From: a virus
Virus record (IMG/VR): IMGVR_UViG_3300035703_000357
Coordinates: 1 to 28,033 of that record
DNA: 28,033 nt
Direction: 5' to 3' (one strand)
Shown here: piece after piece, positions 6,276-13,754 of the stretch
Numbering within the stretch: position 1 is the stretch's first letter
Layout of the letters: every line of letters begins with the position of its first letter
Notes under the pieces: model-generated
Database searches by the model: none
What the model saw: only the letters and a program-made list of their open reading frames with translations
Told to the model about the DNA's origin: nothing
Program-made: the position numbers and the translations under genes

Positions 6276-6732
6276 GAGCGTCCGTCGTTACGTAGGAGGG
6301 CAGGGTGGAGGGCGTGTGCTCTAGTGCAGCCTGTGTAGCCTGCAATACTCGGCCGTTAATGACGCGAGACTCCGCCTCTTGCAGCGCGGCAGTGATGCTG
6401 ATCTGCTGCGTGACATCGACCTGGACAGCGGTCTTGGCCGTCCAGCCATGCACGTGCTGGAGGATAGCCAGAGCAGCCTTTGAATCGCCATTGCGAGCCG
6501 CGTCACGCAACTGCCTCGCAGCCTCAGATTCACTATCCGCACGCCCCTTCGCCTCAGCCATCGCAGCCATCGGATCTAACTCACAGAGCCGGCGGTACTC
6601 CACAGGGAGCATCCCGGCAGCCAGAGCAAGACTATCACCCTTAAGACCGAGTGCGGCGGCTTCGTAGATGTCGAGCAGGCGCTGCTCGGTGGCCTTAATC
6701 TCGCGGGTCGTCAGCGGGAGCGATTTGAACAT
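6256..6732 (-). CDS. terS: Terminase small subunit (putative)
   Basis: A 158-residue protein lies immediately upstream of the large terminase with a 20-base overlap. Residues 16-50 (TEQRLLDIYEAAALGLKG then LALAAGMLPVEYRRL) look like a helix-turn-helix. A following Ala/Glu-rich helical segment ends at AALAILQHVHGWTAK, a pattern typical of TerS-type proteins. The C-terminal 50 residues are low-complexity Ala/Gln/Thr. TerS recognises the packaging site and stimulates the large subunit. Identification rests on size, HTH and gene order more than on a specific signature. The SD upstream of the ATG at 6732 is weak (TAGAG). Confidence 0.8.
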   Translation of the reverse strand: MFKSLPLTTREIKATEQRLLDIYEAAALGLKGDSLALAAGMLPVEYRRLCELDPMAAMAEAKGRADSESEAARQLRDAARNGDSKAALAILQHVHGWTAKTAVQVDVTQQISITAALQEAESRVINGRVLQATQAALEHTPSTLPSYVTTDAHADANL

Positions 6733-7124
6733 GCGCCAGAACTCTAGCCGCGTTGTAAATAAAAAACAAGCGATGTGCAGGGTTCACCTGCCGGGAGGCC
6801 GCGATCCCGAACAACCGTCGGGCCTGTGTGCCGGGGCGGAGATTGCCTTAGATGGTGGGCCATGGCCCTTCAGCTACCTCCCGGTCGCTACGTGCGCATC
6901 ACGTCAGACATCGCTAATAAAGGATAACTGCAAATCGTTTATTAGCAAAGCGCGTTAGTAAAGGATCGTAACATTTTGGGTTACAGGCTTGTGGCGGAAA
7001 GATAAAAAATTTTTTGTGACCCCTTAGTAAAAATGACCGGCCACCCCTTCGGCCCTACCCCCCCCATCGCTTGCAACAAAATCCTATTAGCCTGGCGTTG
7101 TGGGCAGTGTGGCTACGCCCACAG
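6733..7124. other. Intergenic region with inverted repeats and AT-rich segment
   Basis: About 390 bases with no convincing gene. Contents: a GCAGG/CCTGC stem at 6777-6791; a GC-rich block to about 6900 containing the palindrome GGGCCATGGCCC; a perfect 9-base inverted repeat GCTAATAAA (6913-6921) / TTTATTAGC (6938-6946); two further TTAGTAAA copies near 6955 and 7025; an A6T6 tract at 7004-7015; an 8-C run near 7058-7065; and an inverted TGTGGGC/GCCCACA pair at 7099-7123, directly after the regulator stop. The region lies upstream of the terminase operon and downstream of the regulator gene, so it probably holds late-operon control signals. No strong sigma70 promoter was seen; TTGCTA-16-TATCCT on the minus strand within the inverted repeat is a weak candidate. 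Confidence 0.6.
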
Positions 7125-7358
7125 CTATAGGTAACGGACTAAGCCCTTAGTCGTTATGCGCAGATGATGTTTGCTTGCACGCACGTGCAGCGCGTTGCCG
7201 ACTCGCTCGATGGTGATAGGCCCCGACTCGCTCACTAGCAGGCTGAGGACGCGGGCCTGCTTGCGTGTGATCAGATCGAACGCGAGCAGGTTGTCCAGGG
7301 CTGCGAGCAACTGATCAGGTTGCGAAATGGCGAGCGGTTCTGTGGGTTTTGTGGTCAT
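7125..7358 (-). CDS. Small winged-helix / MarR-like transcription regulator
   Basis: I place the start at the ATG at 7358 because AGGAT lies 7-9 bases upstream. The frame is open further upstream but would run through promoter-like sequence. The 77-residue product has a helical N-terminus (LLAALDNLLAFD) followed by LITRKQARVLSLLVSESGPI and TIERVGNALHVRASKHHL, then ITTKGLVRYL. This reads as helix, helix-turn-helix and short wing, as in minimal MarR/wHTH repressors. It is the only leftward gene facing the divergent rightward early operon and sits beside repeated operator-like sites, including one overlapping its own start codon. Autorepression and control of the early promoter are therefore likely, but inferred. 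Confidence 0.7.
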   Translation of the reverse strand: MTTKPTEPLAISQPDQLLAALDNLLAFDLITRKQARVLSLLVSESGPITIERVGNALHVRASKHHLRITTKGLVRYL

Positions 7359-7394
7359 GTGGGCAATCCTCGTGGGGTCGGGAAAGGAAGCCCG

Positions 7395-7423
7395 AAAATA
7401 CCAGTTTTTAAGTTTGTGGGCAA
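7395..7423 (-). promoter_or_regulatory. Candidate leftward promoter for the regulator gene
   Basis: On the minus strand TTGCCC (7423-7418) and TATTTT (7400-7395) are separated by exactly 17 bases, and a TGG extends the -10 box (TGGTATTTT). Transcription would start near 7388, giving a 5' leader of about 30 bases with the AGGAT ribosome site before the ATG at 7358. The -35 box lies inside a TGTGGGCAA motif, and a perfect palindrome lies just upstream. Each box matches consensus at only four of six positions, so this is a reasonable but unproven call. Confidence 0.4.
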
Positions 7424-7424
7424 T

Positions 7425-7438
7425 GTGGTCATGACCAC
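7425..7438. promoter_or_regulatory. Perfect 14-base palindrome GTGGTCATGACCAC (operator candidate)
   Basis: A perfect dyad immediately upstream of the leftward -35 candidate. Related sites are TGGTCATGACTA at 7639-7650, upstream of the rightward promoter, and a half-site GTGGTCATG at 7351-7359 that includes the start codon of the regulator. Recurrence at both promoters is what marks it as an operator. Confidence 0.55.
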
Positions 7439-7638
7439 CACCATTGACGCCAGCCCACAGCAACGGAATTGCCTAACCGCCTATCGGTCATTTAACATAA
7501 TATCAAGAGTTTCCAAGTTCAGATAAAAACATAACCATTTATACCCACAAAGCCCCCGCGCCCTATGTTTTCAGGCACTTGCTGTGGGCAGCCAAACTAC
7601 CCACACCACCACCCACAATACCCACAACATCCGCACAA

Positions 7639-7650
7639 TGGTCATGACTA
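7639..7650. promoter_or_regulatory. Imperfect palindrome TGGTCATGACTA (second operator candidate)
   Basis: Its core GGTCATGAC is identical to the core of the palindrome at 7425-7438, with one arm position changed. It lies about 20 bases upstream of the rightward TTGACA box, so a bound protein could activate or repress that promoter. Confidence 0.45.
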
Positions 7651-7671
7651 AACATTTGTAAGAAAATGTTT
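7650..7671. promoter_or_regulatory. Inverted repeat AAACATTT-6-AAATGTTT overlapping the -35 box
   Basis: Two perfect 8-base arms (7650-7657 and 7664-7671) are separated by six bases. The right arm ends inside the TTGACA box of the rightward promoter. This geometry fits a repressor dimer site blocking RNA polymerase. It differs in sequence from the GGTCATGAC and TGTGGG motifs, so a second regulator, possibly encoded elsewhere, may act here. Confidence 0.5.
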
Positions 7672-7698
7672 GACAACATTCCGCGACTCATGTTTAAT
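7670..7698 (+). promoter_or_regulatory. Strong sigma70-type promoter for the rightward early operon
   Basis: A perfect TTGACA (7670-7675) and TTTAAT (7693-7698; five of six matches to TATAAT) are spaced by exactly 17 bases. Transcription should start near 7705, just ahead of the first gene at 7732. This is the best promoter seen in the window. It implies host RNA polymerase transcribes the operon early in infection. Confidence 0.75.
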
Positions 7699-7731
7699 AC
7701 ATCCATCGACAACGTAACCAGGTGCAAACAG

Positions 7732-7863
7732 ATGAAATTCTCTACTCTCTTATTCTCACTCGCCGTCATCCTCACGTTTGGCGCCTGGATGGGCGCACCG
7801 ATCTTAGGACTGGCACTCTGCACGCAACTCGGCGCAGTCTTTTGTCTTGCGCTGAACGACTAG
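7732..7863 (+). CDS. Small membrane protein (43 aa), first gene of early operon
   Basis: An in-frame ATG at 7666 lies upstream of the predicted transcription start, so the ATG at 7732 (AGGTG about 8 bases before it) is preferred. The 43-residue product, MKFSTLLFSLAVILTFGAWM onward, is almost entirely hydrophobic with a short positively charged N-terminus. It looks like one or two membrane helices, or a signal anchor followed by LGLALCTQLGAVFCLAL. Two Cys are present. The family is not recognised. Its position directly behind a strong promoter suggests an early inner-membrane function, such as blocking superinfection or altering the host, but this is inference. Confidence 0.6.
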   Translation: MKFSTLLFSLAVILTFGAWMGAPILGLALCTQLGAVFCLALND

Positions 7864-7907
7864 CCTGCTGTAAACTAAACTCTGACAATCAACTGGAGTA
7901 AACGACA

Positions 7908-8219
7908 ATGAGCACTGACACCAAATACAACGGCTGGACTAACTACGCCACGTGGCGCGTCAATCTGGAAGTATTCGACGGGCTGGACATCCGCGACCAC
8001 TTCGACGACATCCCGAGCGCCTATGACGTGGCGCAATGGGCGCAAGGTTACGCTGAAGAGCTCCTAGACTCTGCCATGCGTGAGCCCGTCGGGATCCGTA
8101 GCCGCATGTTGACCCCTTGCGACATCGTAGACGGTTGGGCGCGTGCCTTTCTGTCTGATGTTGACTGGGCGTCCATCGCTCGCCACCTGCTCGATGACGT
8201 CCAGGCGGAGGCCGCCTAA
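7908..8219 (+). CDS. DUF7249-like phage protein
   Basis: The start at 7908 has TGGAGT 9 bases upstream. The 103-residue acidic protein begins with the signature YNGWTNYATWRVNLEVFDG (about 7-25), which I recognise from many small phage and plasmid proteins (DUF7249-like; the family number is from memory). The rest is helical and rich in Asp, Glu and Trp, ending DDVQAEAA. No catalytic motif or membrane segment is seen. Function is unknown in the family. Its acidity and early position would suit a protein that binds a host nucleic-acid protein, but nothing in the sequence proves this. Confidence 0.75.
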   Translation: MSTDTKYNGWTNYATWRVNLEVFDGLDIRDHFDDIPSAYDVAQWAQGYAEELLDSAMREPVGIRSRMLTPCDIVDGWARAFLSDVDWASIARHLLDDVQAEAA

Positions 8220-11080: not shown

Positions 11081-11265
11081 CCGCGCTACCGAAGGCCGAG
11101 CTCGACCGGATCGTGCAGAACTACGTGGACGCTGTGCACACGCTCTGCCGCTATGAGGCCGCGTTGCATCGCATCGCCAACATGGGGCGCGACACGGCTG
11201 ATGACGCCCACACCATCGCCCGTGAGGCGCTAGCGGTGACTCGTGCCCAAGCTGACGCACACTGA
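11077..11265 (+). CDS. Small helical hypothetical protein (62 aa)
   Basis: The ATG at 11077 overlaps the preceding stop; an earlier frame start at 11032 would lie inside that gene. The product, MTALPKAELDRIVQNYVDAV, then HTLCRYEAALHRIANMGRDT and an Ala-rich end, is a single long-helix type protein with heptad-like spacing, probably a coiled coil or helical hairpin. No family is recognised. It is the last member of the ten-link chain of overlapping genes. Confidence 0.6.
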   Translation: MTALPKAELDRIVQNYVDAVHTLCRYEAALHRIANMGRDTADDAHTIAREALAVTRAQADAH

Positions 11266-11446
11266 GTGGTGGCGCCGCCGCATGGGGCGCTGGATCGACG
11301 TAGCGCGCAAACAGGTGCGCAAAAACGAAGGGCGCCGCTATCGGGCGCCCTCCCACTTACAAGCCACCATCAACCGATACAATCAACTAAAGGCCTCTAA
11401 GCGTGTCGTACTTACTCTTAACTATCGCCGCGACAGTCATCGTTGA
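11243..11446 (+). CDS. Small highly basic protein (67 aa), start uncertain
   Basis: The frame is open from GTG 11243, overlapping the previous gene by 23 bases; an ATG at 11281 is an alternative. No good SD is seen for either. The product is rich in Arg, Lys, Trp and His (TEWWRRRMGRWIDVARKQVR, then NEGRRYRAPSHLQATINRYN), so it is probably a nucleic-acid binder. Reality is supported by open frame and operon position rather than by a family. It ends 5 bases before the stop codon of the convergent primase-helicase gene. Confidence 0.45.
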   Translation: MPKLTHTEWWRRRMGRWIDVARKQVRKNEGRRYRAPSHLQATINRYNQLKASKRVVLTLNYRRDSHR

Positions 11447-11468: not shown

Positions 11469-13754
11469 CAATGCAGGCGTATTGCCCTCGGCCATCCGTC
11501 GAAGCTCTGAGCGCGTAAGGCCTGCAAACTGCGGGTGACAGAATACGTGCTTTTTGGTTGGAAGCTCACGCGAGTGAATTCGGCCACAGTCCACCCACTC
11601 AGCCTCACGCAGCGCGTGCAGTAGCGCGGCCTGTACGACCTTGACCCCACTCGGCGCGAGGCCTTGCAGACGATCACAGATTGAATAGAACGGCGCGCCG
11701 ATCACGCCACGGCTGAAGTCGCCTTGGCGCTGGCGGATCATCTCGACAAGGAACGACTCGGCTGTGCTCATGGCCGATTCGATCATAATCATCTTGGCTT
11801 CCGTCATCGGCGGCGCGGCGCCTGGATTGAACGCCGACACGTCACGGGCGTCGAGCCACGCAGCAACAGCCGCAAAGCCGCCTGCGTGATACCAGCGCCA
11901 GAGCTCGGCGGCCGCATCAGACTCTAAGCGCGGCGCGTCCGACCATACGACGAACCAGCGCCGATCATTGGACGGCAAGCTGATAGCCGCACGCTCGTTG
12001 CTGAACGACAAGACGAACACGCGATTAAGCGCTTCGTACGGGTGCAAGCCCTTGCGGTTAACTGAGAGCAATTCAGGCGGCGCAGCGATGATCGGCTTGA
12101 GGCTGTTCTCCAACGCTCTGCGATCTTTGGCCTCGGCCTGACGCAATTCGTTGATGACGATGACCTCAGACTCCAGCGCGTAGCCCCACTGACTGTTCAG
12201 TTCTTCATTTTTGATCGTAAAGACGTTGGTGCGGTCTCGCGCATCACCGCCGATTGACCAGATGAACGGAGCCCACAGCGTGTCCTTGCCTGAGCCTGGC
12301 TTGCCTGCGTGCAGCACGGCGTGGTTGATCTTCTGCTCGGGATGCTGGCGCTTGTAGGCCATCACGTTGAGAACGTGCTCGCGCTCGGTAGGATCCGGGA
12401 TCATCCGCTCGGCATGAGCGAGCCACGGGCTGACATCACCTGGCACGCCTTCGGGGCGAGCGTCGCGCCAGCGGTTGCCGTAGACGAGACCCGCACGCGA
12501 GCAGAGCACCGACTCGCCAGCGGCGAACGTGACGCCAGCCAACACGCGAGCGCCCTTGGCCTGACGGTTCTCGTCGTAGCAGATGGACGCCTCGATGCGG
12601 CGGTTATTGTGGACGCTGTGACAGGTAACGTGACGGAAGAGCGCGTTGAACGCACTACGGGCGATCTCTTGGCGCTCGTTAAGGTCAAAATAGGCGTCAT
12701 CGCTCACGACGTACGCAAAACGCTCGTACCACTGCGACTTCTCAACGCGCCCAAGCTCGCGGCGCTCGACCTCTTCAATGACCTTGGCCGTCTCATCGGG
12801 GTATTCTTCGGTCGGTGTGATCTTGCTCAAAGCGGCCTCCATCTTGCGCGCCAATAGGTCATCGCGCAGACCGTACTCGCTCTTGGGGCCGCCCTCGGCC
12901 TCCACCCATCGCAAGAACTTCTCGCTGTTCCACTCGCCGCAGTGGCCGTGAAAACAAGTGTAGCTGCGCGAGATGGGATTGTACCGCCCGCTCGGGTCGC
13001 CCGTCGTGTGCTCGGCGTGGTTGGGACAGACGACGCCATACCAGCCCTCGCCGTTGGCCTTCTCCAGCAGGAGCCCGCGCTCTTGGATCCACTCCAGCAC
13101 CTTGTCCATGCCGTCATCTTCAAGAGATACGCCGCGTATATACGCCGTATCCACAGGGCCGGGCGTGACGCCAAGGGCTGTAACGATCTGCGTTAAAGTG
13201 AACTCGCGCTCGGGGTAGAACTCGGTCAGCACCGAGGCGAAATTGTCGCGGCCTTCCTTGAGATTAATGCTGCCGGGGATGCGGAAATTACGCACCGGAT
13301 TCACCGCACCAGGATCGGTAAATCCCGCTTCAGCAATCGCTTTGATGGCCGCAGCGAACTCGCCCTTCAGCGGCTGATCGTCAAGGCCGAACGTGTAGCC
13401 CCACTGATAGTTGCCGGGGCTCGTTTCAATCTTCCACGTCGGCTCTAGCGGCGGCGCTTTGGACTTCGTACCGATGTCATCCAGCACCAAGAACGCCACG
13501 CGCTCGCAGTTGGCCGCAGAGGCCGAGAGGCCATCGCGGAAACGCTCAACAATGAAGCAGCCCGTGTTAGCATACCAAGCCCCCGGACGTCCCAATTTGG
13601 GACTAGTCGGTAGGAATGGCGGCCACACGTACTTCGGCGTTCCGTCCTTGTGGCACACCGGCTCCCCGCCGTAAACGACGGGCTTCTGCCGGACAAATAA
13701 AATAGTTTCCCCCTCGGGGGCGATGTTGGTAAGATAGTCAATGAACTCTTGCAT
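11451..13754 (-). CDS. Primase-helicase (AEP-type primase + SF3-type helicase, DUF5906-like)
   Basis: This 767-residue protein has an N-terminal archaeo-eukaryotic-like primase region: AFLVLDDIGTK with D92-D93, and NPVRNFRIPGSINLK at 152-166, a RepB-like primase motif. A Cys/His cluster follows (C243, H246, C267, H269, H271, C272), in CPNH and CFHGHC, which looks like a zinc site. The C-terminal helicase has Walker A GKPGSGKD at 484-491 and Walker B-like VIVINEL at 531-537. It would prime and unwind phage DNA alongside the polymerase encoded upstream. A GGAG is 9 bases before the ATG at 13754. Transcription is leftward and ends head-on against the early operon. Confidence 0.9.
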   Translation of the reverse strand: MQEFIDYLTNIAPEGETILFVRQKPVVYGGEPVCHKDGTPKYVWPPFLPTSPKLGRPGAWYANTGCFIVERFRDGLSASAANCERVAFLVLDDIGTKSKAPPLEPTWKIETSPGNYQWGYTFGLDDQPLKGEFAAAIKAIAEAGFTDPGAVNPVRNFRIPGSINLKEGRDNFASVLTEFYPEREFTLTQIVTALGVTPGPVDTAYIRGVSLEDDGMDKVLEWIQERGLLLEKANGEGWYGVVCPNHAEHTTGDPSGRYNPISRSYTCFHGHCGEWNSEKFLRWVEAEGGPKSEYGLRDDLLARKMEAALSKITPTEEYPDETAKVIEEVERRELGRVEKSQWYERFAYVVSDDAYFDLNERQEIARSAFNALFRHVTCHSVHNNRRIEASICYDENRQAKGARVLAGVTFAAGESVLCSRAGLVYGNRWRDARPEGVPGDVSPWLAHAERMIPDPTEREHVLNVMAYKRQHPEQKINHAVLHAGKPGSGKDTLWAPFIWSIGGDARDRTNVFTIKNEELNSQWGYALESEVIVINELRQAEAKDRRALENSLKPIIAAPPELLSVNRKGLHPYEALNRVFVLSFSNERAAISLPSNDRRWFVVWSDAPRLESDAAAELWRWYHAGGFAAVAAWLDARDVSAFNPGAAPPMTEAKMIMIESAMSTAESFLVEMIRQRQGDFSRGVIGAPFYSICDRLQGLAPSGVKVVQAALLHALREAEWVDCGRIHSRELPTKKHVFCHPQFAGLTRSELRRMAEGNTPALSVVGK

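Follow-up and report, generated by a model that had tools for sequence, protein, structure and literature searches.

Co-variation of a repeat array with the wing of a primase-helicase points to a probable self-read replication origin in a family of podovirus-like phages

The TGTGGG repeats that cluster upstream of terS in a phage genome fragment are most likely docking sites of the phage's own primase-helicase, judging from how boxes and protein change together across its relatives. We analyzed a 28,033-bp virus record, hereafter the window, which represents part of a genome from a large family of podovirus-like phages of about 37 to 38 kb. We consider it probable that the array is an iteron-type origin to whose boxes the primase-helicase binds with its C-terminal winged helix, wing residues 727 to 734 reading box positions 4 to 6. 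Evidence for this reading comes from co-variation between box and wing, the conserved place of the array, the predicted winged helix, and parallels with P4 and SaPIs.

All 11 TGTGGG copies listed in an earlier, sequence-only reading of this DNA were recovered, with every position and strand as given there (Table 1). The whole contig holds 23 copies, compared with a mean of 12.5 in dinucleotide shuffles, and CCCACA/TGTGGG is its most clustered hexamer, with 11 copies in 530 bp and 9 for the runner-up. Across 300 first-order Markov simulations, the maximum in any 528-bp interval was 4, versus the 11 observed. Elsewhere, the window has about 0.4 copies per kb and relatives have 0.3 to 0.6 per kb, and close relatives keep the cluster, so that neither of the two outcomes named in the earlier reading as refuting it was observed. 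The extended consensus put forward earlier was TTGTGGGYA; a better unit is a 9-bp box, TNRCCCACA on the opposite strand. The overlap with a start codon that had been pointed out is real, as the copy at 7358 shares one base with the ATG (7356 to 7358, minus strand) of a 77-residue open reading frame (ORF) for a wHTH protein. The array separates plus-strand early genes from the minus-strand terS-terL operon, with terS a few hundred bases away. A strand-skew switch was sought at this spot, and the array coincides with no GC-skew extremum in the window; GC skew is uninformative here because gene orientation also flips at the array.

Table 1. Features of the repeat array and of the primase-helicase gene in the window
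Feature	Position	Strand	Remarks
Array of 11 TGTGGG cores (9-bp boxes TNRCCCACA)	7099-7626		read as putative iteron array/origin; position conserved in relatives
Box CTGCCCACA	7099-7107	-	
Box ACGCCCACA	7115-7123	+	inverted relative to the 7099 box
Box AAACCCACA	7341-7349	-	
Box TTGCCCACA, perfect	7358-7366	-	
Box TTGCCCACA, perfect	7415-7423	-	adjoins TGTGGTCATGACCACC dyad at 7424-7439
Box CAGCCCACA	7451-7459	+	
Box ATACCCACA	7541-7549	+	
Box CTGCCCACA	7583-7591	-	
Box CTACCCACA	7597-7605	+	
Box CCACCCACA	7609-7617	+	9 bp from next box
Box ATACCCACA	7618-7626	+	
AT-rich stretch, 60-62% A+T, inside array	7460-7559		candidate unwinding element
77-residue wHTH ORF inside array	7125-7358	-	purifying selection (dN 0.35, dS 1.45 vs L015); not required for array
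Primase-helicase, 767 aa	11451-13754	-	N-terminal primase-like part, DUF5906 helicase, C-terminal winged helix; proposed array reader
C-terminal winged-helix domain, about residues 664-739	11538-11765	-	predicted; AlphaFold2 models, mean pLDDT 81 and 89.5
Wing loop, residues 727-734 (HSRELPTK)	11553-11576	-	residues 727 and 732 co-vary with box

Scanning IMG/VR with TerL recovered at least 599 relatives on contigs of up to about 38 kb. Among annotated public relatives, Phage DSL-LC05 (OR003940.1) has a portal with 73% DNA identity and leaves the window primase unmatched, and MW202483.1 has a primase at 51%. Close relatives carry 10 to 15 TGTGGG cores at the same place upstream of terS, and their boxes are mostly head-to-tail pairs with a 9-bp period (TTGCCCACATTGCCCACA), the usual tandem box being TTGCCCACA. 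The window array is less regular than these: exact 9-bp pairs are few, and it encloses the wHTH gene. The array of one relative (L133), read directly from its DNA, consists of TGTGGGTCA boxes. In more distant relatives, this place is likewise occupied by an array, but with a box that differs by lineage, including TTGTCCACA, TAGCCAACA, TTGCCTACA, TGACCCAAA, TACCCCAC, and others; a comparison of arrays by 7-mer spectra was too noisy for use. In four genomes for which no match to the window-type primase was found (L084, L085, L070, and L073), a compact array of CCGTAACA repeats occupies the same region upstream of the terminase, which suggests another initiator that has repeats of its own.

Many early genes are present in some relatives and absent from others. 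Many relatives (e.g., L133 and L079) have an early-region gene for a sliding-clamp-like protein of about 213 to 230 aa, which was not found in the window. Just upstream of terS, at 6770 to 6914 on the minus strand, lies a 145-nt element with a predicted closed, multi-stem RNA-like fold, in which both sides have changed in 6 of 39 predicted pairs across 12 relatives. Rfam searches returned no match for this element or for positions 6500 to 8000; the element may be an undescribed non-coding RNA or a leader of the late operon.

The window primase matches PHROG DNA primase at 7e-25, and its helicase domain is of the SF3/D5 type (Pfam DUF5906, 40.5 bits; cut-off, 27.6). Pfam gave no Toprim match in this protein; the N-terminal part matches PHROG primase families weakly and, in our reading of its motifs, appears AEP-like. 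AlphaFold2, run with 49 family sequences, places helices at residues 664 to 674, 689 to 699, and 708 to 717 and strands at 721 to 726 and 735 to 739, with the wing loop between the two strands. This C-terminal winged helix is confidently predicted and putatively DNA binding. Foldseek searches against the PDB returned only weak matches (best E value, 0.037), headed by winged-helix proteins, among them the replication terminator RTP and a PadR-like factor.

Co-variation between wing and box was assessed in 123 genomes with both an array and a primase. K727 combined with D/E732 is found in 15 of 15 genomes with GTCCA arrays and in 0 of 108 others. On a tree built from primase residues 1 to 690, i.e., without the C-terminal domain, the GTCCA trait switches ten times, and 7 of 7 supported independent pairs agree between trait and wing (p = 0.016). 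When all primase columns were scanned for this trait, the top rank went to D732 (phi 0.96) and the next to K727 (phi 0.67). A727 or G727 with Q732 goes mostly with GCCAACA arrays, S727 with Q732 with GCCGACA, H727 with P732 (the window's own group) with GCCCACA, Y727 with A732 with GCCTACA, and M727 with T732 with ACTACA, some of these classes being single clades or single genomes.

Switches are also visible between closely related proteins. The primases of L208, L197, and L201 have only 11 to 13 differences over residues 1 to 690, their C-terminal domains differ at 727 and 732 among other sites, and each has its own box: TTGCCTACA with Y727, ATGACTACA with M727, and TATTGCCAT with A727, respectively. 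L376 (A727, Q732; GCCAACA) falls within a group of K/D primases whose arrays are GTCCACA; it differs from L381 at 26 body sites and at 7 sites in 691 to 745, including A727K and Q732D, and the two arrays are GCCAACA versus GTCCACA. For a test in the reverse direction, the DNA pattern TTGTCCACATTGTCCACA was the sole criterion for retrieving arrays, and only distinct, previously unseen C termini were counted. Among primases linked to the TTGTCCACA tandem, K727 was present in 50 of 50 and D/E732 in at least 49 of 50, compared with 12% in the first set; these figures cover linked primases only, because 53 and 54 fetched pieces held no primase. Arrays fetched with TTGCCCACATTGCCCACA came with wings H, A, S, R, or K/D, and TTGCCCACA tandems go with wings H, A, S, or K/D. 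The rule is thus firm from GTCCACA to wing and loose in reverse. A GTDB contig from a Rhodoferax MAG (L390), with wing LKSRRHDSKK and about 15 copies of GTCCACA, fits it.

The rule is not uniform across the family. In one clade, position 6 of the box varies (RCC[A/C/T]ACA) although all members share the wing LASREYQTKK. Where a box, such as the window's GCCCACA, is restricted to one clade, the column scan cannot split wing columns from clade history, so the window case rests on the family rule. The primase body of L079 is identical to that of L265, which has a TACCCCAC array, yet the L079 array is TGACCCAT; L079 and L076 likewise share a primase and have different arrays. The 23-bp array motif of L079 occurs in nine contigs, eight of which gave a primase match, and seven of these eight primases are of another type, which marks L079 as the exception. 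This contig (IMGVR_UViG_3300044911_001532) was the only one found with a mismatch between primase type and array type and is possibly a recombinant, or chimeric or misassembled.

The earlier suggestion that the repeats are iterons of a replication origin gains indirect support from boxes that track the primase-helicase wing; by analogy with known systems, we infer physical binding, helicase loading, and the origin identity of the site. The primase-helicase would bind the TNRCCCACA boxes via its C-terminal winged helix, with the wing residues reading box positions 4 to 6. The bound protein would assemble at the array, its SF3-type helicase would be loaded where the DNA is AT-rich, this adjacent AT-rich DNA would be opened, and the primase-helicase would prime synthesis as replication starts.

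Alternatively, the array could be an operator or enhancer for divergent early and late promoters, bound by the primase-helicase or another phage protein, and not a replication start. Such a role would suit its place between the divergent early genes and the terS-terL operon, and 52 of 107 genomes have a LexA/SOS-like box, CTGT-N8-ACAG, in their array region, as a control region would. Nevertheless, we regard this reading as unlikely: the co-varying protein is a primase-helicase and no regulator, a consensus scan of positions 6900 to 7800 found no promoter-like site, and relatives that are matched only over the helicase and winged-helix part, or are unmatched, have another kind of array. The LexA-like box reads CTGTATATATATACAG in the TACCCCAC group, lies at the array centre in L018, L020, L065, and L076, for example, and was not seen in the window.

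It is very improbable that box and wing co-vary only through shared descent. Although the confinement of several box classes to one clade is what such hitch-hiking would produce, the ten GTCCA switches, the agreement of all supported sister pairs, and the ranking of the wing columns above every other primase column argue against it, and the previously unseen data fit the rule.

The sequence-only reading also proposed the copies as operators for the wHTH regulator encoded within the array. The gene lies among the boxes, has one of them over its start codon, and is under purifying selection (Table 1), but we find this explanation highly doubtful, since arrays persist where the gene is missing. 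Among 80 TerL-based loci, the gene was present only in L015 (50% identity) besides the window, and an IMG/VR scan with the wHTH protein found no relative. L133, whose primase and TerS are 98% and 99% identical to those of the window, has no wHTH ORF and keeps its TGTGGG array; L016, otherwise similar to the window and L015, has an uninterrupted array and no wHTH gene; and L010, L018, and L020 also keep TGTGGG arrays without it. The wHTH protein was therefore rejected as the array reader, since most relatives with a retained array lack its gene. In both the window and L015, the start of the ORF lies in box sequence, and the L015 protein begins MPTLPT, coded by ATGCCCACATTGCCCACA.

It is scarcely credible that the array serves TerS, the small terminase, as a packaging (pac) site, despite its proximity to terS, since near-identical TerS N-terminal regions go with TGACCCAT in L071, L078, and L079 and with TACCCCAC in L065, L076, and L077; TerS was rejected as a reader because the box does not follow it. 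Comparison of ORF families in the early region gave no gene that tracks the box independently of clade, and a 67-aa ORF (11243 to 11446), present in 41 genomes, is clade-confounded. The copies had been described as resembling but not matching DnaA boxes, a fair description of TNRCCCACA, which is not TTATNCACA. This difference, together with the switching of the box lineage by lineage with the phage primase, speaks against a host DnaA-box origin.

If the array is an origin read by the primase-helicase, these environmental phages may repeatedly re-target it, a few initiator wing residues and the whole iteron array changing together as a fast-switching identity tag under a partly readable rule (K727 with D/E732, A/G727 with Q732, S727 with Q732, and H727 with P732, each with the box given above); we hold this view to be evenly poised. 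Such a tag would let the phages escape satellites, co-infecting relatives, or defences aimed at the origin. That a helicase-primase can read an iteron origin is already known from P4 and SaPIs, but the hundreds of natural variants found here, with wing and box switching together, amount to a natural experiment on the evolution of initiator specificity. They allow a wing-to-base recognition rule to be tested directly and cheaply, provide a route by sequence alone to candidate replication origins of uncultured phages, and offer a clue to the forces behind origin switching. A full-text literature search, with subscription papers outside its scope, found no description of the arrays of this family or of a wing-to-box rule.

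The closest solved sequence relatives of the helicase domain, 6k9c and 6k9e (E value, 4e-4; residues 462 to 612), are entries titled 'Primase' that we take to be the primase-helicase of phage NrS-1; this match leaves the C-terminal winged helix of the window primase uncovered. In PLE RepA and ICP1 Odn, RepA and its iterons switch together as wing and box do here, and an origin-targeting nuclease has been proposed as the driver (PMC8263062). However, PLE uses a RepA_N initiator and semi-palindromic iterons of about 30 bp, and no nuclease was seen in the window family. The alpha protein of satellite phage P4 combines primase, SF3 helicase, and an origin-binding winged helix in one protein, which binds short origin repeats through the winged helix (PMC4234260; PMC9611036), as we propose for the window primase-helicase. 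P4 alpha has a bacterial-type (Toprim) primase domain (PMC4234260), whereas the N-terminal part of the window protein matches other phage primase families, and the papers found do not describe family-wide switching of the box with the wing. SaPI5 Rep and SCCmec Cch2 belong to the same D5/Primase-Cterm helicase class as the window helicase, and the C-terminal domain of SaPI Rep and Cch2 recognizes an iteron origin (PMC7581432), as proposed here. In contrast to SaPI origins, which lie directly downstream of rep, the window array is several kb from the primase gene and upstream of terS, and whereas SaPI and SCCmec elements are staphylococcal islands, the window family consists of podovirus-like phages.
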